From NCBI GenBank assembly GCA_023301025.1, contig JALZUR010000036.1:1-58505 (forward strand): a stretch of 58,505 bases of DNA. The letters are read 5' to 3'. Below are positions 1,258 to 43,120 of this stretch, in pieces. Both the position numbers and the translations under genes were made by a program. The notes under the pieces were generated by a model. That model did no database searches and was not told the DNA's origin. It saw only the letters and a program-made list of their open reading frames with translations. Within the stretch, counting starts at the first letter, position 1. Every line of letters begins with the position of its first letter. This DNA comes from Bdellovibrionales bacterium. GTDB lineage: Bacteria > Bdellovibrionota > Bdellovibrionia > Bdellovibrionales > UBA1609.

Positions 1258-2295
1258 ATGTTTAGAGTTTCTGTATTTATATTCGTTTTATTCAACTGTT
1301 CTGTTAGTTTAGCTAACAATCATATTTTATATTCTGTAGAAAAAGATGGAAGAGTCTCGCACATTTTAGGGACCATGCACTCTGTTAATGCTGAGCTAGA
1401 TGTTGTTCACCCTCTTTTACCCAAAATAATTGATGAAGCTAGAGTCGCATTGGTGGAGTTGTATGGAAAGGGTGATTCTACACATAGTCGTTATAGCTCG
1501 ATAAGAGAGTTTACAAACAACCTAAGTAGAGACAATGCAAAAAAAAACAAAGGTATCTCTACAGGCGCAAAGAGAAAATTTAACCAACTTATTAAAGATT
1601 ATGAAATAAGCGAAGGTCGTAATGGTAAGCTAGATTTACTCTCAGCTTGGAACCATTTTCCTCCAGGCTTTGCTATTTTACTTCTAGAAATCATTAAGAA
1701 AGTAACTAAGCAGTCACTTTCAATTGATGCGGCAGAAAAATTACAATCAGTTATAGAATTTGGCTTAGACAGTAGAATCGAGCAAAGGCTGTTTGAGTTA
1801 AAGACTCCAGTTATCTCTTTAGATGCCAACAATCGTTATCTTCAAGCTTTTGTAGATGAAATCACTATAAAAGGTTTGTCTCAATATATTATGTCGGACC
1901 TAGAAAACTTTAATGATATTAAACCATTTGATGTTGATGATGAAAAGTTTGTGCAAACCCGCTTAAAAATGGAAGAGCAGTATTTTGATGATAACTTTGT
2001 AAGACCTTCTGTTAGCCGCGAACGCGATGGTGAGCAAGCAAGTGAGTCCAGGCGAGCTATGCTATCTGGAAGAAATAAACTCTGGGCTCCAGTAATTATG
2101 GATGAGGTTGAGGATGGTGATGCTTTAATTGCTGTTGGTATTGGGCATCTACATTATGAAAGTAAAACCTATGGAGATAATCTTTTAGATATTCTAAGAG
2201 ACAATGGCTACACTCTTAAAGCCCTTCCAAAAGCTGAATATACAAATGTAAAATCAAACTCTCTTTCATGCTCAAAGCAGTTAAGCGGCAAATAG
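1258..2295 (+). CDS. TraB/GumN family exported protein, copy 1 of 3
   Basis: Secreted or periplasmic member of the TraB/GumN family, for which a metallo-hydrolase type activity has been proposed. A signal peptide (about residues 1-19, ending SLA) precedes the family hallmarks: ILGTMH with His41, a Glu after a hydrophobic strand (VALVEL, Glu67), and the C-terminal GIGHLH (His297). Length (345 aa) is normal. No Shine-Dalgarno precedes the ATG; a weak -10-like TAGTCT ends 8 bases upstream. It heads a run of three paralogues that share the C-terminal motif NGYTLKALPKA. Substrate unknown. Confidence 0.82.
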   Translation: MFRVSVFIFVLFNCSVSLANNHILYSVEKDGRVSHILGTMHSVNAELDVVHPLLPKIIDEARVALVELYGKGDSTHSRYSSIREFTNNLSRDNAKKNKGISTGAKRKFNQLIKDYEISEGRNGKLDLLSAWNHFPPGFAILLLEIIKKVTKQSLSIDAAEKLQSVIEFGLDSRIEQRLFELKTPVISLDANNRYLQAFVDEITIKGLSQYIMSDLENFNDIKPFDVDDEKFVQTRLKMEEQYFDDNFVRPSVSRERDGEQASESRRAMLSGRNKLWAPVIMDEVEDGDALIAVGIGHLHYESKTYGDNLLDILRDNGYTLKALPKAEYTNVKSNSLSCSKQLSGK

Positions 2296-2328
2296 TTAAA
2301 TATTTATAAAAAATAAGGAAGACTTTAG

Positions 2329-3354
2329 TTGATTAAAGAATTGATAGTACTTTTATTTTTAACTTCATCAGTCTGTTTAGCAGATGATGATAGTAAACAT
2401 ATTCTTTACTCAATTAAAAAAGATGGAAAAGTCTCACATATTTTAGGAACACTTCATACGGTAAAGTCAGATGCAAAAACTGTGCATCCCCTTCTTCCTG
2501 ATTTGATTTCACAATCAAGAGTAGGACTTTTTGAAATAACGAATAAGCAAGACAGATTTGATGGTCTTGACGCTTTTCTTGAAGAATTTTATGGCAAAAG
2601 AGATCTTTCAGAAAGTTCTTTAGATTTTTCTGATGAGGTTAAAAAAAGACTTGAAGTTTTTGTATCAGAAATATCTTCTGAACATTCTCATTTAAAGTAT
2701 TGGCCGATGATGCTGCCGGGTATACTTTATCTTTCATTAAAGGAAGCAATTTTTAGCTTAAGCAAAACTTTAACACCTGAAAACAGTGACAGAATTACAT
2801 TTGATAGAAGGCTCAGAGTTATATTTAAGGAGCATAAAAAGCCTCTTATAGCTTTAGATGCTGATCAAAGGTACTTAAAAGCGTTCCATTATTTTATAAC
2901 GCTTGAAGGGTTATCGCAATTTATACTTAAGAAACTCCCAGAAGCTAGCTTTAATGCTGTTTTAGATAAAGCAAGGTTGATTTCAAACTCTAAAAAAGAA
3001 AGTACTCTAAAAATAGCTTTTGAAGTTATTAATGAAGAGAAGTACTTAGAAGATGATGTTGCAGGTCTATTAACAGAAGATTTTGAAGAAGGTATTGAAA
3101 GATCAGTAATTGAAATAGCTAATCTTTATGGAAGAAATGCAATATGGGCTTCTAAAATCCTAGAAGAGTTTGAAAAAGGCGGAGCATTTGTAGTAGTTGG
3201 ATTGGCTCACCTTCACCTGCAAAGCAAGTCAGGTAAGAGTCTTTTAGAAATTTTTATGGATAATGGCTACACTCTTAAAGCTCTTCCAAAAGCGAACTAT
3301 TCAAATGTAGGTTTAAACTCTGCTTCATGTTTTAAAAAGTTAACTGGAGAATAA
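2329..3354 (+). CDS. TraB/GumN family exported protein, copy 2 of 3
   Basis: Second tandem paralogue, 341 aa, starting at a TTG preceded by AAGGAAG. The signal peptide ends near CLA (residue 18). It keeps HILGTLH (His43), the acidic strand GLFEI (Glu69) and VGLAHLH (His294). Stretches of its DNA near both ends match the neighbours almost base for base (21 identical bases near 2395 against copy 3; the NGYTLKALP region against copy 1), so the array grew by local duplication. The gap to copy 1 is 33 bases and to copy 3 only 4, so all three are probably one transcript. Confidence 0.8.
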   Translation: MIKELIVLLFLTSSVCLADDDSKHILYSIKKDGKVSHILGTLHTVKSDAKTVHPLLPDLISQSRVGLFEITNKQDRFDGLDAFLEEFYGKRDLSESSLDFSDEVKKRLEVFVSEISSEHSHLKYWPMMLPGILYLSLKEAIFSLSKTLTPENSDRITFDRRLRVIFKEHKKPLIALDADQRYLKAFHYFITLEGLSQFILKKLPEASFNAVLDKARLISNSKKESTLKIAFEVINEEKYLEDDVAGLLTEDFEEGIERSVIEIANLYGRNAIWASKILEEFEKGGAFVVVGLAHLHLQSKSGKSLLEIFMDNGYTLKALPKANYSNVGLNSASCFKKLTGE

Positions 3355-3358
3355 ATTG

Positions 3359-4393
3359 ATGTTTACAAAAAATATTTTTTTTATATTAATTTTCTTTTTT
3401 GCTACAGATAGCTTCGCAAATAAACATATTCTTTACTCAATTGAGAAAGATGGAAATACTTCGCACATTTTAGGCACCCTTCATATACTGAAACAAGATA
3501 TCGCTGAAGTTCACCCTCTATTGCCTGATTTGATTTTAAATACGAGGGTTGCGCTTTTTGAAGTTGAAACTACTGGGGTTAGGCTAAAAGGGTTTGATAT
3601 TCTTTTACGAGATTTTTTAATCAATAGTCCTGTCTTTGGTAGATCGGTAGGTATTTCTGATGAAGCTAAAGAGCTGTTAACCGAATTTTTTGATCAAGTT
3701 TCTAAAGAATACAATTACGTTAAGTTTTGGCCGTTGATGCCGCCAGGAATAGTTTTGTTGTTGGTAGCACACCTTCGCAATCATCAGAGTGACAATTTTG
3801 AACACATAAGTGTATTAAACGATCAAATACTTTTGATAGATAGTGAAATTGCTCGCATGGTTAAAGCACTTCAAAAGCCTATAATTTCACTTGATGGAGA
3901 GCATAGATACCAACAGGCTTTTATCGAGAATATAGATGTTGAAGGTTTATCTCACTATCTTTTGAGTACACTGCCGCAAAAGCGATTTCAGGTGCTGGAT
4001 GAAAATAAGAGTAAATTAGAAAATCTTGTTGATGGTTTAAAAAAAACTTTAGAGCAAAAAATGGAAGAAAAAGCTTTGATTGGTTCTTACTTAAATGAAG
4101 ATGTTGAAAAAATTCTACTCGAATTTGATGAGCCTTTTTTAAAGAGATTTAGATATTATGATGCTCTACTTTTTGGAAGAAATGCAGAATGGGCTTCTAA
4201 AATTTTAGAAGAGCTTGAAAAAGGTGAAGCCTTAATTGTAGTTGGTTTGGCTCATCTGCATGTGCAACGTGAGTGGGGTAGAAGTCTTTTAGAAATCTTA
4301 GAAGAGAATGGCTATAAGGTTACAGCGCTTCCTAAAGTCGACTATATGAGCGTATCAAGCGGTGCTTTAAGTTGTAATTCCATTTTGCAATAA
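3359..4393 (+). CDS. TraB/GumN family exported protein, copy 3 of 3
   Basis: Third paralogue. The ATG at 3359 is preferred over the TTG just before it, because GGAGA (3346-3350, inside the end of copy 2) sits 8 bases upstream. Signal peptide to about residue 20 (SFA). Family motifs: HILGTLH (His42), ALFEVE (Glu68), VGLAHLH (His299). It has a longer charged helical stretch before the last motif than copy 2. It ends 32 bases before the convergent mlaD; no clear terminator is visible between them. Confidence 0.8.
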   Translation: MFTKNIFFILIFFFATDSFANKHILYSIEKDGNTSHILGTLHILKQDIAEVHPLLPDLILNTRVALFEVETTGVRLKGFDILLRDFLINSPVFGRSVGISDEAKELLTEFFDQVSKEYNYVKFWPLMPPGIVLLLVAHLRNHQSDNFEHISVLNDQILLIDSEIARMVKALQKPIISLDGEHRYQQAFIENIDVEGLSHYLLSTLPQKRFQVLDENKSKLENLVDGLKKTLEQKMEEKALIGSYLNEDVEKILLEFDEPFLKRFRYYDALLFGRNAEWASKILEELEKGEALIVVGLAHLHVQREWGRSLLEILEENGYKVTALPKVDYMSVSSGALSCNSILQ

Positions 4394-27374: not shown

Positions 27375-28994
27375 TTAATCCAAATCTTTAATGGCTTGAT
27401 CTTCATTTAAAACACGTCCCATAGAGACAAACTCAGTCAGTTGGGCGTCTATTTTTGCAGTTTTTAAAATATGCTCTACAATCTGTATTGCTGACCATTT
27501 TGGTTTTTTGTGCTGAATTCGACCACAGACTCGTGTAACTTGAGGAGCTGCCATTGAGGTGCCACTCAGTTCTATAGGTGGGCCGTATGGCCATTGAGAA
27601 AGAATGTTTGAGCCTCTGGCTGCAATATTAACAATCGTATTGTTGTAGTTTGAAAAGTTAGAAAGTTCGCCAGATTCATCAATTGAAGCTACAGTAATCA
27701 CGTTTTTTAAAAGAAAATTTGCAGGGTATTGAGGCTTTTCATCGAGGTTGTCTGAATCGTTTCCTGCGGCTGCAACAAAAACCATGTCAGTGTTTTCAGA
27801 TATGACTTTTTCTAAAGCTTTTTTGTATTCTTTTGAAGACTCATCTTCGTCTGTAACACCAAAAGACATATTAACACATTTAACACCATGTTTTTTTAAG
27901 TATAAAATACTAGAGTTTATTTTTTCATAGATTTCATCTGAATTTACACTTAAGTCATAGGTCCCATCTCCACCAATCAAACGCATAGGAATAATTGCTA
28001 ACTCTTCCGTATTTTTTGTTGCAATACCAGCAACATGGGTTCCGTGTTGATGCTGAATTCTATAATCGATGGATCTCATTGAGAATGTAAAGTCGTCAGC
28101 ATAAAAGTCAAAAGGAAGTGTACCAGGATCTACCATGTCTAAACCTAAAAAAAGAACTTTAGAAGGGCTGAGGTTTGGCAGTAGTTTTTTTTGTATAGAA
28201 CGGTTGTTGTAATCAATCCCAGAATCTATAACTCCTATTGGGGTTTTAGTGCCTCTGTATTTTGTGTCTGCTTTAAAATTAACAATTCTTGGATTATCAA
28301 TAATTCTTTTAGCAGTTAAATCTTCACGAATTTCAACTTTTTCTATCAATTTTCCTTTTTTATTCTTTTTAGAAAAAGAGAAGTTGCTAACGATGCAGGA
28401 GTCTTTTCTAAGGTTTAAGTCCCACTTCACAGTTCGATCTTCAGATGTGTAGAAATAATTTAATTGGTTCACAAACGCATCATCCTCTGATTCTTCATAG
28501 CTATTGTGACTGTATATTTCTTTTGGCAGTTCTGTTTGACCATTATCTAAACACTTTTCTTGTATAAACCTCGGTAATGACTCTGGAATAATAGTAGCTA
28601 TAGTAGGAAGTTGTTTGTTGAATAAAAACCTTAAAATCGCAATTTCTTTTTTGGGTTGATTTGATAAAAGCTCTATCCACAGTGGAATAGGATCATCTAT
28701 GTGAAGACTCAGTTCCCCTTCAGATTTTACAGTGTCATATTTTCGCCCATACATAACTAAAACACTCTTAACAGTTGGATCTTTAAAGTTTGTTTTTGAA
28801 AGTGCATATTGATATTTATTTAAAACATTTTGATATCTTTGATCACTAACTTCTATGTCTATAACTTTACCATCTTCAGTAAACGGACTGCCTTCTGTCA
28901 GAACAACTCGAAATGTTGGTGCAGCATTAGAAGTTAGCGGCAATAAAAAAAATAATATTACAGTACAATAAGCTTTAGTCATTTTTAAATTCAT
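27375..28994 (-). CDS. Subtilisin-like serine protease (S8), exported
   Basis: Secreted protease. A signal peptide (residues 1-24, ending SNA) precedes a prodomain-like region of about 200 residues. The S8 triad is complete: Asp257 in GVIDSGIDY, His317 in HGTHVAGIA, Ser480 in SGTSMAAP, with the oxyanion Asn in VAAAGNDSD. Length is 539 aa. AGGAG precedes the ATG. The gene is divergent from the lipoprotein gene at 29197 across 202 bases. Given the large pro-region, self-processing is likely; target unknown. Confidence 0.9.
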   Translation of the reverse strand: MNLKMTKAYCTVILFFLLPLTSNAAPTFRVVLTEGSPFTEDGKVIDIEVSDQRYQNVLNKYQYALSKTNFKDPTVKSVLVMYGRKYDTVKSEGELSLHIDDPIPLWIELLSNQPKKEIAILRFLFNKQLPTIATIIPESLPRFIQEKCLDNGQTELPKEIYSHNSYEESEDDAFVNQLNYFYTSEDRTVKWDLNLRKDSCIVSNFSFSKKNKKGKLIEKVEIREDLTAKRIIDNPRIVNFKADTKYRGTKTPIGVIDSGIDYNNRSIQKKLLPNLSPSKVLFLGLDMVDPGTLPFDFYADDFTFSMRSIDYRIQHQHGTHVAGIATKNTEELAIIPMRLIGGDGTYDLSVNSDEIYEKINSSILYLKKHGVKCVNMSFGVTDEDESSKEYKKALEKVISENTDMVFVAAAGNDSDNLDEKPQYPANFLLKNVITVASIDESGELSNFSNYNNTIVNIAARGSNILSQWPYGPPIELSGTSMAAPQVTRVCGRIQHKKPKWSAIQIVEHILKTAKIDAQLTEFVSMGRVLNEDQAIKDLD

Positions 28995-29161
28995 AGTGAT
29001 CTCCTACCGCCAAAGATTTAGCAATTTACGTGCCATGGATTTAACAATGTATTATCAAGTGACTGGTGAGTAGCTCAGGTCAAATTTGTGTTATTTTATG
29101 ATATGTTTTCAAAATAGGAGTGGTAAAAGTTTTAAACTTTGGTTTAAAGGTCGTGTTCGTT

Positions 29162-36516: not shown

Positions 36517-36523
36517 AGGTCTA

Positions 36524-36553
36524 GACTTAGCCTTTCTTACGTAAAACTGTCAA
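36524..36553 (-). promoter_or_regulatory. Promoter of the pcrA/uvrD-like helicase gene
   Basis: On the minus strand a perfect TTGACA (36553-36548), an 18-base spacer and a weak TAAGTC (36529-36524). With a 7-base discriminator, +1 falls on the helicase ATG at 36516. The only SD-like AAAGG is 13 bases upstream. Confidence 0.4.
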
Positions 36554-36671
36554 ATTTTAGATAGCCGAGTGATGTTAAAGTGACTGGATCAATAGCTAAA
36601 TTGTAAGAATAAGTTCATTATCATCAACTTAAGTCAAAGTCTTTTCAACACCTAAGGCCTATGTTTCAAAT

Positions 36672-36687
36672 TGGCACAAGACTTGCC
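36672..36687 (+). promoter_or_regulatory. Sigma-54 promoter of the fliL-like/fliA operon
   Basis: TGGCAC-N5-TTGCC matches the -24/-12 consensus TGGCAC-N5-TTGCW in all but the last base, with exact spacing. The predicted +1, about 12 bases past the GC, is 36698, next to the ATG at 36699. Sigma-54 control is common for middle-class flagellar genes. Confidence 0.75.
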
Positions 36688-36698
36688 TTTATAATTAA

Positions 36699-37115
36699 AT
36701 GAGAAGTCTTATTTATTTAACTTTTGTAAGCTTATTTTTTGTATCTTGTGATTTACAAAAGAATTCTAATACAGCTCATGAAAATGTTAGTAATAATGTT
36801 TCACAATCGTATGAAAAATTTGTCGACGAAAGTCTTACACTTACACTTCCTCACGAAGGCTTAGATATTCCTCCAGCAATTGTAACTCTAGATATTTCTT
36901 ATGTTGGTAAAGAAGGAGTAGAGAACGTTTTCAAAGAAAATGAAAATCTTATCCTAAACCTTATTAGAACTAAGATTGTTAATTTTTCTTTAAAAGATCT
37001 TAAGCGAGGTGATGGCTTAAGTAGATTAGAGATAGAAATTTTGGATTCAGTAAATGGTTTTGTTGCAAATGATATGTTTGTAAAAGTTCAAGTTTCAAGC
37101 GTTAAGGAAATATAA
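36699..37115 (+). CDS. FliL-like lipoprotein
   Basis: 138-aa protein. A lipoprotein signal (MRSLIYLTFVSLFFVSC, Cys17) replaces the usual single membrane helix of FliL. The domain (about 38-138) follows the FliL pattern: a strand LTLPHEG, a long helix with ENLILNLIRTKIVNFSLKDL, then IEILDSVNGFV and a final strand VKVQVSS. FliL surrounds the stator and supports flagellar torque. It heads the operon ending in fliA, directly behind a sigma-54 promoter with no ribosome site. FliL identity is inferred from pattern and context. Confidence 0.6.
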   Translation: MRSLIYLTFVSLFFVSCDLQKNSNTAHENVSNNVSQSYEKFVDESLTLTLPHEGLDIPPAIVTLDISYVGKEGVENVFKENENLILNLIRTKIVNFSLKDLKRGDGLSRLEIEILDSVNGFVANDMFVKVQVSSVKEI

Positions 37116-37118
37116 AAA

Positions 37119-37430
37119 ATGCAAGAGCTAAGTTATATTATTCCTGGTGCAGCTTTATGTGTTTTGTCTTTAGTTTTAATTGCGACAGTTATTTTAAGAA
37201 AAAAATCAAAGTTAAGTTTAGTAAGTGAGGTCAAAGTGAATGATAAATCATTTTATGCTGTTAGATTAGAAGGTGAAGACTTTTTGTTTTTAAAAGATGA
37301 AACTTCAGTTAAATTTATAGATAGTTTAGATGAAGTAGAAGATTTTGCAGTTTTAAACCTATACGATATGCAAAACCCTAAAATCAGTGATGAAACATTA
37401 GAAATTCCAGATCATGAAAAAGCCTCTTGA
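37119..37430 (+). CDS. Small single-pass membrane protein in flagellar operon (FliO-like)
   Basis: 103-aa protein with one membrane helix (about residues 6-26, IIPGAALCVLSLVLIATVIL) and a basic stop-transfer followed by a soluble beta-rich part. Size and topology resemble FliO of the flagellar export apparatus, but no diagnostic motif is seen, so FliO is only a suggestion. It starts 3 bases after the FliL-like gene. Confidence 0.5.
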   Translation: MQELSYIIPGAALCVLSLVLIATVILRKKSKLSLVSEVKVNDKSFYAVRLEGEDFLFLKDETSVKFIDSLDEVEDFAVLNLYDMQNPKISDETLEIPDHEKAS

Positions 37431-37432
37431 AT

Positions 37433-38134
37433 ATGAAAAATTGGGTTGAGGCAGTACACTTTTTAAGAGCAGAAGGTTTTAAGGATATTTCAATTAACGA
37501 AGTCTTAGACGAAATTCGTGGTATAGGCATGCATCATACACACAGTGTGAGTGCTGCTGTGTTTGAATACATTCAAAAAGTAGTTATTTCTGTTGATAAG
37601 AACATTGATACGCCTCTTAATCTTTATGTTAGACCTTCTGAGAACTCATTAAAATCTGTTAAAAAGATTATTTTTTCACTTTTAGAAGAAAAAAAAATTA
37701 TTAATATAGACAATTCAAATTTTGAAAAAATATACACTGATAACCCTGGTAAACTTAAATCTGTACTTGGTGAAGACTTTATAAAAGCATTTCACTTAGA
37801 TATTTCAAAAGATTTTAAAGGGTCAAATTGTAGAATTTCTTTTGGTTATAAAGTTTTTGAAGATGGAAGAAGTTACTTACTTGCACATGAACATGAAATT
37901 TTAACAGATAAAGAAGTTTCGTTTTATAAAAAGCTTTCTTGTAATTTAATGATTGTTGCAAGTTTAGAGTCTTCGATTGGCTCTAGAGTAAAGCTATCCA
38001 TTGAAAGCAAGCTTCCGCTTTTATGTGAAATTTTTGAAGAGACAAATTTTTTAGATAAGTTTTATTACTCTGATCAACTTTTAATTGAGTTAAAAGAAAA
38101 ATCTGGAGCTTTAAACTACAGAGAGGCTATTTAA
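37433..38134 (+). CDS. Unknown protein in flagellar operon
   Basis: 233-aa soluble protein, not recognised. The ATG at 37433 is preferred over the TTG at 37427, which overlaps the previous stop. The N-terminal 60 residues look helical, with a His-rich turn GMHHTHS. The middle is mixed; the end is amphipathic. No signal peptide or membrane helix, so it is probably cytoplasmic. Position between a FliL-like gene and fliA suggests a flagellar assembly or regulatory role, which is inference only. Confidence 0.55.
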   Translation: MKNWVEAVHFLRAEGFKDISINEVLDEIRGIGMHHTHSVSAAVFEYIQKVVISVDKNIDTPLNLYVRPSENSLKSVKKIIFSLLEEKKIINIDNSNFEKIYTDNPGKLKSVLGEDFIKAFHLDISKDFKGSNCRISFGYKVFEDGRSYLLAHEHEILTDKEVSFYKKLSCNLMIVASLESSIGSRVKLSIESKLPLLCEIFEETNFLDKFYYSDQLLIELKEKSGALNYREAI

Positions 38135-38314: not shown

Positions 38315-39115
38315 ATGGGGGAGAAGAAAGTGGCTAAGATATCACTTATTAAAAAGTTAAAAACTGAGAATAATGGTAAGCTTACCTTAGAACAAAAAAA
38401 TGTAATCATTGCTGAGTACGCTCCATTAATAAAATTTATTGCACAAAGAATTTCAATGCGTCTTCCTGCTAATATTGAGCTGGATGATCTTATCTCTTGC
38501 GGCGTTATTGGTTTAATGGATGCTATTGATAAATATGATGAAACTCGTGACAACAAATTTAAGACTTACGCTGAATTTAGAATTAGAGGTGCAATTTTAG
38601 ATGAACTAAGAGCACAAGATTGGGTGCCTAGATCTGTTAGAGATAAAGCGAAACTTTTAACTAGAGCTGGTGCAAAACTTGAAGCAGAGCTTGGTAGAAT
38701 TCCTGAAGACCATGAACTTGCTGATTATATGAAAATTAGTATGGATGAGTATTACAGTTTAGTTAATCAAGCAAAACCAGTGAGTGTTTTATCAATTGAT
38801 GAGCAGGCCACTTACAGTGCCGGAGATAAAAAATCTCTTATGAATTTGGTTGATGGTGTAAAGTCGCAAAACCCTTTTATGCATGTGAATGATAAAAAGG
38901 TTAAGAAAAAGATTTCAAAATGTATTGAAGCTCTTCCAGAAAGACAGAGGCTTGTCTTATCTCTATACTATTACGAAGAGCTAAATCTAAAAGATATTGG
39001 TGAAGTTTTAAAAGTTACAGAAAGCAGAGTGTCTCAACTTCATGCTCAAGCTGTTACAAGGTTAAAAGATCGGCTTACGCAGGTCTTTGATGAGCCTGAG
39101 CGAATAGCTAGTTAA
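38315..39115 (+). CDS. fliA: Flagellar sigma factor sigma-28
   Basis: RNA polymerase sigma factor for late flagellar and motility genes. Region 2 (LDDLISCGVIGLMDAIDKYD), the FliA-typical IRGAILDELRAQDWVPRSVRDKAK, region 3, and region 4 with helix-turn-helix NLKDIGEVLKVTESRVSQLHAQA are all clear. Length is 266 aa. Ribosome site AGAGGGG. A sigma-28-like promoter is found elsewhere in this window (48531). Confidence 0.93.
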   Translation: MGEKKVAKISLIKKLKTENNGKLTLEQKNVIIAEYAPLIKFIAQRISMRLPANIELDDLISCGVIGLMDAIDKYDETRDNKFKTYAEFRIRGAILDELRAQDWVPRSVRDKAKLLTRAGAKLEAELGRIPEDHELADYMKISMDEYYSLVNQAKPVSVLSIDEQATYSAGDKKSLMNLVDGVKSQNPFMHVNDKKVKKKISKCIEALPERQRLVLSLYYYEELNLKDIGEVLKVTESRVSQLHAQAVTRLKDRLTQVFDEPERIAS

Positions 39116-42170: not shown

Positions 42171-42204
42171 AAAAATTCTACCTAAAAACTTTTTAGTAGA
42201 TTTT
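42171..42204. terminator. Bulged hairpin between convergent subtilase and rpoH
   Basis: AAAATTCTACCTAAAAA pairs with CTTTTTAGTAGATTTT with one or two bulges, in the 43-base convergent gap. A- and T-runs on both sides suit a bidirectional terminator. Confidence 0.4.
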
Positions 42205-43120
42205 AATCTAAGAAAGAAGCTTTGATTTTTTTTATAAGTCTAGCTTCAGTTTGCCTAGCTGCTTCTCTAGAAACTCCCCACTCTTTTCCAAAATCACTAA
42301 GTTTTTTTGGGCTGTCTGATAAAAGTCTTTCTTTTAAAATAAGCTTTTCTCTATCATTCAATTGATTTTTTATTTTTTCTAAGGTTTCAGAAAGTCTTCC
42401 GATATTTTCTTTTAATTCTATATTATCATCTAAAACTTCGTGGTAAGAGTCTTTTTGAAGATCGATAAGTCGTAAGCTTTCACTTTCATTAAGGGGTTGA
42501 TCTAGGCTTATATCTTTTCCACCTAAGCGTGTTTCCATTAACTCTACATCTTTTTCACTCACCCCTAAGCGAGTGCTTAAAAGTTTTACCGAAGGCTCTT
42601 CACCTTCTATTAAGAGCTTATTTTTTTCTTTTTGTAGATTGTAGTAAAGTTTTCTTTGAGCATTGGTTGTGCCAATTTTTACCATTGAGTGCTGTTTCAT
42701 TAAGTAGTCTTGAATGTATCCCCTAATCCACCAAACAGCATAAGTGATAAGCTTTACGTCTTTGTAGGGATTAAACTGTTTAACGGCTGTCATTAAACCC
42801 ATATTTCCTTCTTGGATGAGGTCGATGACTTTTGATCCAAACTTAGAGTACTCAGTTGCAATTTTAACAACAAATCTTAAATTTGAAGTTACGAGTCTTT
42901 GAGCAGACTCAGGGTTTTTGGTTTCATAGTAGTCTTTTGCAAGTATTTGTTCATCTTCTCTTGAGAGCAGTGGGTACTTTTTGATTTCATCAAGATAAGA
43001 CTGGAGCGGGTCTGTTTTTGCAAGTGGTCCACTTTTTATTCTATCTTTGATTTTTGAAGGGTTGGAATTACCAAGTGCAGGACTGCTTTTGGGTTTTTTT
43101 GTATTTTTAGAAGATGTCAT
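42203..43120 (-). CDS. rpoH: RpoH-type (sigma-32-like) sigma factor
   Basis: Group of sigma factors controlling heat-shock genes. After about 35 Lys/Ser-rich residues come region 1.2 (DPLQSYLDEIKKYPLLS), region 2 (LRFVVKIATEY, DLIQEGNMGLM, ITYAVWWIRGYIQDYLM) and the RpoH-box-like NAQRKLYYNLQKEK. Region 4 ends with a helix-turn-helix (KLSDFGKEWGVSREAARQTEARLIKKI). Length is 305 aa. No ribosome site; a -10 element abuts the start. Confidence 0.88.
   Translation of the reverse strand: MTSSKNTKKPKSSPALGNSNPSKIKDRIKSGPLAKTDPLQSYLDEIKKYPLLSREDEQILAKDYYETKNPESAQRLVTSNLRFVVKIATEYSKFGSKVIDLIQEGNMGLMTAVKQFNPYKDVKLITYAVWWIRGYIQDYLMKQHSMVKIGTTNAQRKLYYNLQKEKNKLLIEGEEPSVKLLSTRLGVSEKDVELMETRLGGKDISLDQPLNESESLRLIDLQKDSYHEVLDDNIELKENIGRLSETLEKIKNQLNDREKLILKERLLSDSPKKLSDFGKEWGVSREAARQTEARLIKKIKASFLD

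Follow-up and report, generated by a model that had tools for sequence, protein, structure and literature searches.

In the 58.5-kb window (the whole stretch of DNA that was analyzed), a sigma-54 promoter stands so close to a fliL-like gene that its predicted transcription start nearly coincides with the start codon. We consider it quite likely that this promoter is functional, that its transcript begins within about 1 base of the fliL ATG and is either leaderless or led by a single nucleotide, and that the arrangement arose by loss of a leader and is one case of a class present in the phylum. The observations that carry this reading are the sequence itself, the geometry of promoter and start codon, the conservation of their spacing, and the enrichment of the same layout in a class of genes.

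Promoter and start codon of the fliL-like gene

The site TGGCACAAGACTTGC occupies positions 36672 to 36686 of the plus strand and is composed of a −24 element, TGGCAC (36672 to 36677), the spacer AAGAC, and a −12 element, TTGC (36683 to 36686); it keeps the 10-bp distance between the GG and GC dinucleotides of the consensus TGGCAC-N5-TTGC. It is directly followed by CTTTATAATTAA and then by the ATG at 36699 to 36701 (plus strand); that is, after TTGC come a C, 11 bases (36688 to 36698), and the start codon. We defined d as the position of the start codon's first base counted after the C of the −12 element (36686), which gives d = 13 for fliL. Transcription from sigma-54 promoters begins about 12 bases after the −12 element. 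This geometry, together with the edge of start-codon positions in the family (see below), places the predicted plus-strand transcription start at 36697 to 36700, most likely at 36698 (give or take 2), one base before the ATG; the leader length predicted from the promoter geometry is 1 nt. The first-pass annotation had described the site and its 11-base gap to the ATG and had argued that the +1 falls on the start codon. Rereading the sequence confirmed both the coordinates and the spacing reasoning, and the geometry is in line with a predicted +1 on the ATG or one base before it.

No Shine-Dalgarno (SD) motif occurs in GACTTGCCTTTATAATTAA, the bases 5′ of the fliL ATG, as had been claimed. The codon at 36696 to 36698 (plus strand) is an in-frame TAA that abuts the ATG, so that an upstream start is excluded, and the frame holds no further ATG, GTG, or TTG up to the lipobox, which upholds the earlier view that a downstream start is unlikely. 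The TATAAT at 36690 to 36695 was weighed as a possible sigma-70 −10 box and rejected: no properly spaced −35 element was reported, and transcription set by such a box would begin on the start codon or beyond it.

The window's own genome (G000; 2.03 Mb, 34.6% GC, 97.5% complete) encodes RpoN (PF04552, E = 2.7 × 10−66). The exact 15-mer pattern was found at two sites in the window (36672, plus strand, and 29021, minus strand) and at 10 in the genome, compared with 0 for the reversed pattern and about 1.2 expected genome-wide from base composition (an estimate from 34.6% GC). When up to two mismatches were allowed, the number of matches (38) was what chance would give (32 expected); weight is therefore carried only by the near-perfect site, and loose matches were set aside. 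These results make the site at 36672 to 36686 a credible promoter. Start codons at d = 13 follow 2 of the 10 genomic sites, those of fliL and L008, and a conventional leader that includes an SD is found at several of the remaining sites. The second perfect site in the window (29021 to 29035, minus strand) has such an ordinary leader, a short one, and an SD (GTAGGAGATCACTATG): it precedes a secreted subtilase gene (27375 to 28994, minus strand) whose ATG begins at base 27 counted from the −12 C. L008 (G000:C22:66299-66328, minus strand) combines a perfect sigma-54 site and an ATG at d = 13 with a 270-aa predicted lipoprotein that has a protease-like HExxH stretch. Elsewhere in the window, positions 1258 to 4393 hold three tandem paralogous secreted genes, each of about 345 aa, with HILYS...HILGT in common near the N terminus.

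In G000, an SD-like motif is missing from about half of the gene starts that were called with confidence (sample loci L242 to L282). A TANNNT motif six bases 5′ of SD-less starts was enriched in a first 433-kb sample (12 of 75), unlike in a second one (3 of 75). A general leaderless class, which had seemed clear in the first sample, thus failed to replicate, and the evidence that G000 makes general use of leaderless translation is weak.

We also found an imperfect GTCAA-N4-TTGAC palindrome with 2 mismatches, GTCAAATTTTAGAT (36549 to 36562, plus strand), which precedes the T of the −24 element of the fliL promoter by 123 bp. The motif was noticed in promoters of genomes that lack FlhA and was then tested on 29 fliL promoters of flagellated relatives, where its mismatches summed to 61, compared with 94.9 ± 3.8 in shuffles (minimum, 84). 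Moreover, 10 of 23 matches lay at −105 to −130, where 2.8 were expected. The palindrome is thus a candidate activator site at a conserved position, possibly bound by an enhancer-binding protein.

A remnant of the fliL-to-fliA cluster

The fliL-like gene (36699 to 37115, plus strand) encodes a 138-aa predicted lipoprotein with a lipobox near FFVSC. FliL (PF03748) is a flagellar stator-associated protein. The window protein matched no Pfam or NCBIfam family profile and fell below the curated PF03748 cutoff, and a direct tblastn search with it against 59 relatives found nothing; fliL orthologues were instead located by synteny with fliA. In the resulting alignment, 6 of 9 members matched the Pfam FliL family (best E = 5 × 10−10), the window member being without a match, and the orthologue L062 passed PF03748 with 39.3 bits (cutoff, 24.6). 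The AlphaFold model of the window protein was of moderate confidence (mean pLDDT, 66.5), and its best PDB matches were FliL chains (6ahq, 6ahp, and 7sgn; E = 7.5 × 10−4, TM up to 0.53/0.66). Orthologue profiles and fold overturned a reading as "not FliL," which had followed from the negative Pfam FliL search of the genome itself, and together they identify the window protein, as modeled, as a divergent FliL homologue and predicted lipoprotein outside the Pfam membership. It has in common with FliL the fold (6ahq/7sgn) and the family match of 6 of 9 alignment members; it differs from the usual FliL in its predicted lipoprotein form, which would replace the membrane anchor, in its genome, which is without FlhA, and in lying below Pfam detection. 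At 13 to 21% identity to its orthologues, it is fast-evolving.

Three further genes follow on the plus strand. The second (37119 to 37430) encodes 103 aa with one membrane segment and is FliO-like by position only, with no Pfam or NCBIfam family. The third (37427 to 38134; 235 aa) has no family match and is a possible remnant of the flhF region, with unnamed genes at the equivalent place in the relatives G015 and G002. The last flagellar-type gene of the cluster headed by fliL is fliA, encoding sigma-28 (38315 to 39115; TIGR02479, E = 4 × 10−82; 73% identical to that of G015), which has its own SD. Flagellated relatives carry these genes in the order fliL-fliM-fliN-fliO-...-flhB-flhA-flhF-flhG-fliA; the window cluster no longer contains fliM, fliN, fliP-R, flhB, or flhA. 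Judged by gene order, the window operon is the remainder of the fliL-to-fliA cluster of flagellated relatives, with fliA kept. A second sigma-70-family gene (42203 to 43120, minus strand) lies downstream of fliA in convergent orientation, and many flagellated relatives have a minus-strand gene of similar appearance after fliA.

FlhA was absent from G000 and likewise from G002, G015, G020, G017, G014, G013, and G001 (sister genomes up to 99% complete). The organism is probably aflagellate. The promoter had been called a sigma-54 flagellar promoter: the sigma-54 part of that description stands, whereas it is flagellar only by descent. A single event of flagellum loss was unsupported, as the FliA tree implied about 2 to 4 changes of export-gate label at low resolution. 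In B. bacteriovorus, FliA has been proposed as a global attack-phase regulator (PMC3627812), and by analogy such a role could be a reason for the retention of fliA without a flagellum. The gene also stands beside a fliL homologue in FlhA-less relatives, where the reduced flagellar-type set may serve another role.

Probable loss of the leader and competing explanations

We read the fliL upstream region in 29 flagellated relatives. All 29 had a sigma-54 site before fliL, and 28 had a plausible leader and SD at the chosen start, mostly with d = 38 to 132; in G048, d was 23 with an uncertain start, and in G040 the automatic start call was wrong and was left uncounted. Among the FlhA-less genomes, G015 has TGGCATCTCAATTGC at its fliA locus, with a GTG at d = 13, and G002 has TGGCCTTAAAATTGC at its fliA locus, with an in-frame GTG at d = 13. 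In G020 the start is a GTG at d = 14 or an ATG at d = 17. The would-be fliL transcripts of these three genomes contain no SD. The distance was 17 in G017 and 16 in G014, the latter with a weak −12 element. Exceptions in the FlhA-less set were G013 and L149, which retain a leader with an SD, and G001, in which an SD is present but a sigma-54 site is not. At two loci, L042 (4874 to 5302, minus strand) and L068 (6033 to 6425), GTG starts at d = 13 would yield leaderless GUG initiation, provided that transcription proceeds as predicted.

The window, G015, and G002 formed one clade on the FliA tree (support, 98/93), and the d = 13 state is therefore most simply taken as inherited. Within this clade the start codon varies between ATG and GTG, whereas the 13-base spacing is fixed, identical across three genera despite FliA branches of 0.13 to 0.52 changes per site. 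Comparison of the promoter-to-ATG distance in related genomes, which the first-pass annotation had put forward as a check, had a divided outcome: the nearest kin share d = 13, as its reading would have it, while the flagellated relatives are leadered and carry an SD in 28 of 29 cases, so that what it had named as refuting, a leader and ribosome site conserved in orthologues, does apply to the flagellated relatives. In our reading of these sequences, the latter leaders show that a leader was lost in the window lineage and are no proof of a leader here. The leader was likely lost from a leadered fliL ancestor, perhaps more than once.

Of the other explanations, the one that fares best, though we think it improbable, is that fliL is expressed mainly from another upstream promoter (within 36517 to 36671 or by read-through), which would give it an SD-less leader and leave the sigma-54 site to produce a minor leaderless form. 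The 155 bp of intergenic DNA (36517 to 36671) leave room for such a promoter, and given that about half of the confident starts have no SD-like motif, SD-less leadered mRNAs may be common and SD-less initiation on a leadered fliL mRNA is also possible. However, scanning of the plus strand from 36400 to fliL gave no sigma-70-like promoter, the neighboring upstream gene is divergent, and the sister clade conserves the exact 13-base spacing and no leader sequence. Still less probable is that the locus is a relic, an operon decaying after flagellum loss in which selection acts on neither the promoter nor the spacing to the start codon. The absence of FlhA from G000 and its relatives, the flagellar genes missing from the cluster, and the divergence of FliL all fit such a history, and the fast evolution of FliL makes a decaying locus possible; yet the promoter is fully consensus, the open reading frame (ORF) is intact with its signal and lipobox, the spacing has stayed the same in three genera along long FliA branches, fliA, a proposed attack-phase regulator elsewhere (PMC3627812), is kept downstream, and many nonflagellar genes have similar layouts.

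In principle, rare codons such as ATT can serve as starts, and ATT is the fifth codon of fliL. Translation from there or from another downstream or noncanonical codon is nevertheless very improbable, since a later start would delete the export signal and the frame, bounded by the upstream TAA, offers no ATG, GTG, or TTG ahead of the lipobox. The reading that we prefer thus remains a leaderless or 1-nt-leader fliL mRNA.

Abutting sigma-54 promoters across the Bdellovibrionota

In a family-wide scan of sigma-54 sites, ATG was overrepresented at d = 12 to 15. In the fetched loci of the window's own family, the ATG opened an ORF of 60 aa or longer in 35 of 46 cases at d = 13 to 17 and in 3 of 36 at d = 5 to 12 (Fisher P value = 3.5 × 10−10); as the loci were picked by ATG distance, these counts measure ORF support per offset and not the leaderless share of sigma-54 genes. 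The matches came from 22 of the 26 genera of the family, and genomes within a genus are not independent. The ATG excess at base 12 was rejected as a set of start codons, almost none of which opens an ORF in the family. The left edge of functional start codons is sharp at d = 13, as expected if a start codon can coincide with the +1 and cannot precede it, and this edge supports a +1 at base 12 to 13.

With the other families of the phylum included, 41 sites with such an ORF were found, and in 33 of these the protein had a signal-type N terminus placed for the abutting ATG and no alternative start preceded by an SD. A few sites, among them L177 and L179, have a later start with an SD and are probably leadered. 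The products in Bdellovibrionota are mostly exported proteins. L180 (G059, d = 15) and L181 (G013, d = 14), a homologous pair from one genus, also have sigma-54 sites that abut the start codon; their product, M[RQ]SWLEYL.FLSWQN, is without a signal peptide, and the class is therefore not confined to exported proteins. The first-pass annotation had considered a leaderless mRNA from a sigma-54 promoter unusual. The layout is recurrent in the phylum and not a one-off. In the open-licence literature we found no account of leaderless genes with sigma-54 promoters as a class.

Sigma-54 promoters and leaderless mRNAs are each well known. In the portions of the sources available, leaderless promoters of Campylobacter (PMC3847290) and Bradyrhizobium (PMC4842269) are of the sigma-70 type with a −10 box, and leaderless ORFs of Deinococcus-Thermus adjoin a −10 region (PMC12340547). 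As these reports present them, the leaderless genes of all three groups resemble the window fliL in that the promoter core abuts the start codon and no SD is present, and differ from it in that the window promoter is of the sigma-54 type. In the available parts of a report on Leptospira interrogans (PMC5243855), leaderless mRNAs are abundant and sigma-54 sites lie before lipoprotein genes, the latter as in the window genome, and the two facts are not linked; those of a Sinorhizobium report (PMC3616915) likewise give leaderless mRNAs and sigma-54 sites unlinked. The window promoter has in common with sigma-54 flagellar operon promoters the TGGCAC-N5-TTGC core and an upstream palindrome at a distance compatible with an enhancer-binding protein; in contrast to the fliL promoters of flagellated relatives, with leaders mostly of 38 to 130 nt and an SD, its predicted +1 nearly coincides with the start codon, and its genome is without the flagellar export gate.

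A sigma-54 promoter requires an ATP-driven activator. We infer that an enhancer-binding protein near 36549 to 36562 would activate RpoN-RNA polymerase held at the −24/−12 element and that transcription would begin at about 36698, giving 5′-(A)AUGAGAAGU. The ribosome would accept the 5′-terminal AUG with no need for SD pairing, and translation of the genes further along the operon would rely on their own SD sites. The ancestral fliL leader, mostly of 38 to 130 nt in flagellated relatives, would have been lost in the same lineage as the flagellar export gate.

For the phylum as a whole, the balance leans toward a leaderless, activator-gated sigma-54 class in Bdellovibrionota, mostly of exported proteins, in which the promoter would set the first nucleotide of both the mRNA and the ORF and into which leadered genes could be converted by leader loss, as with fliL. 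Leaderless genes are usually linked to sigma-70-type −10 boxes, and a sigma-54 class would differ from these. The start-codon edge 13 bases after the −12 C offers a sequence-only estimator of sigma-54 start sites, and the fliL genes, which share their promoter but have a leader in flagellated genera and are predicted to be leaderless in the FlhA-less clade, amount to a natural experiment on leader loss. If the reading is true, leaderless translation would be coupled to promoters that stay silent until an ATP-driven activator fires, with a possible link to developmental switching in predatory bacteria.
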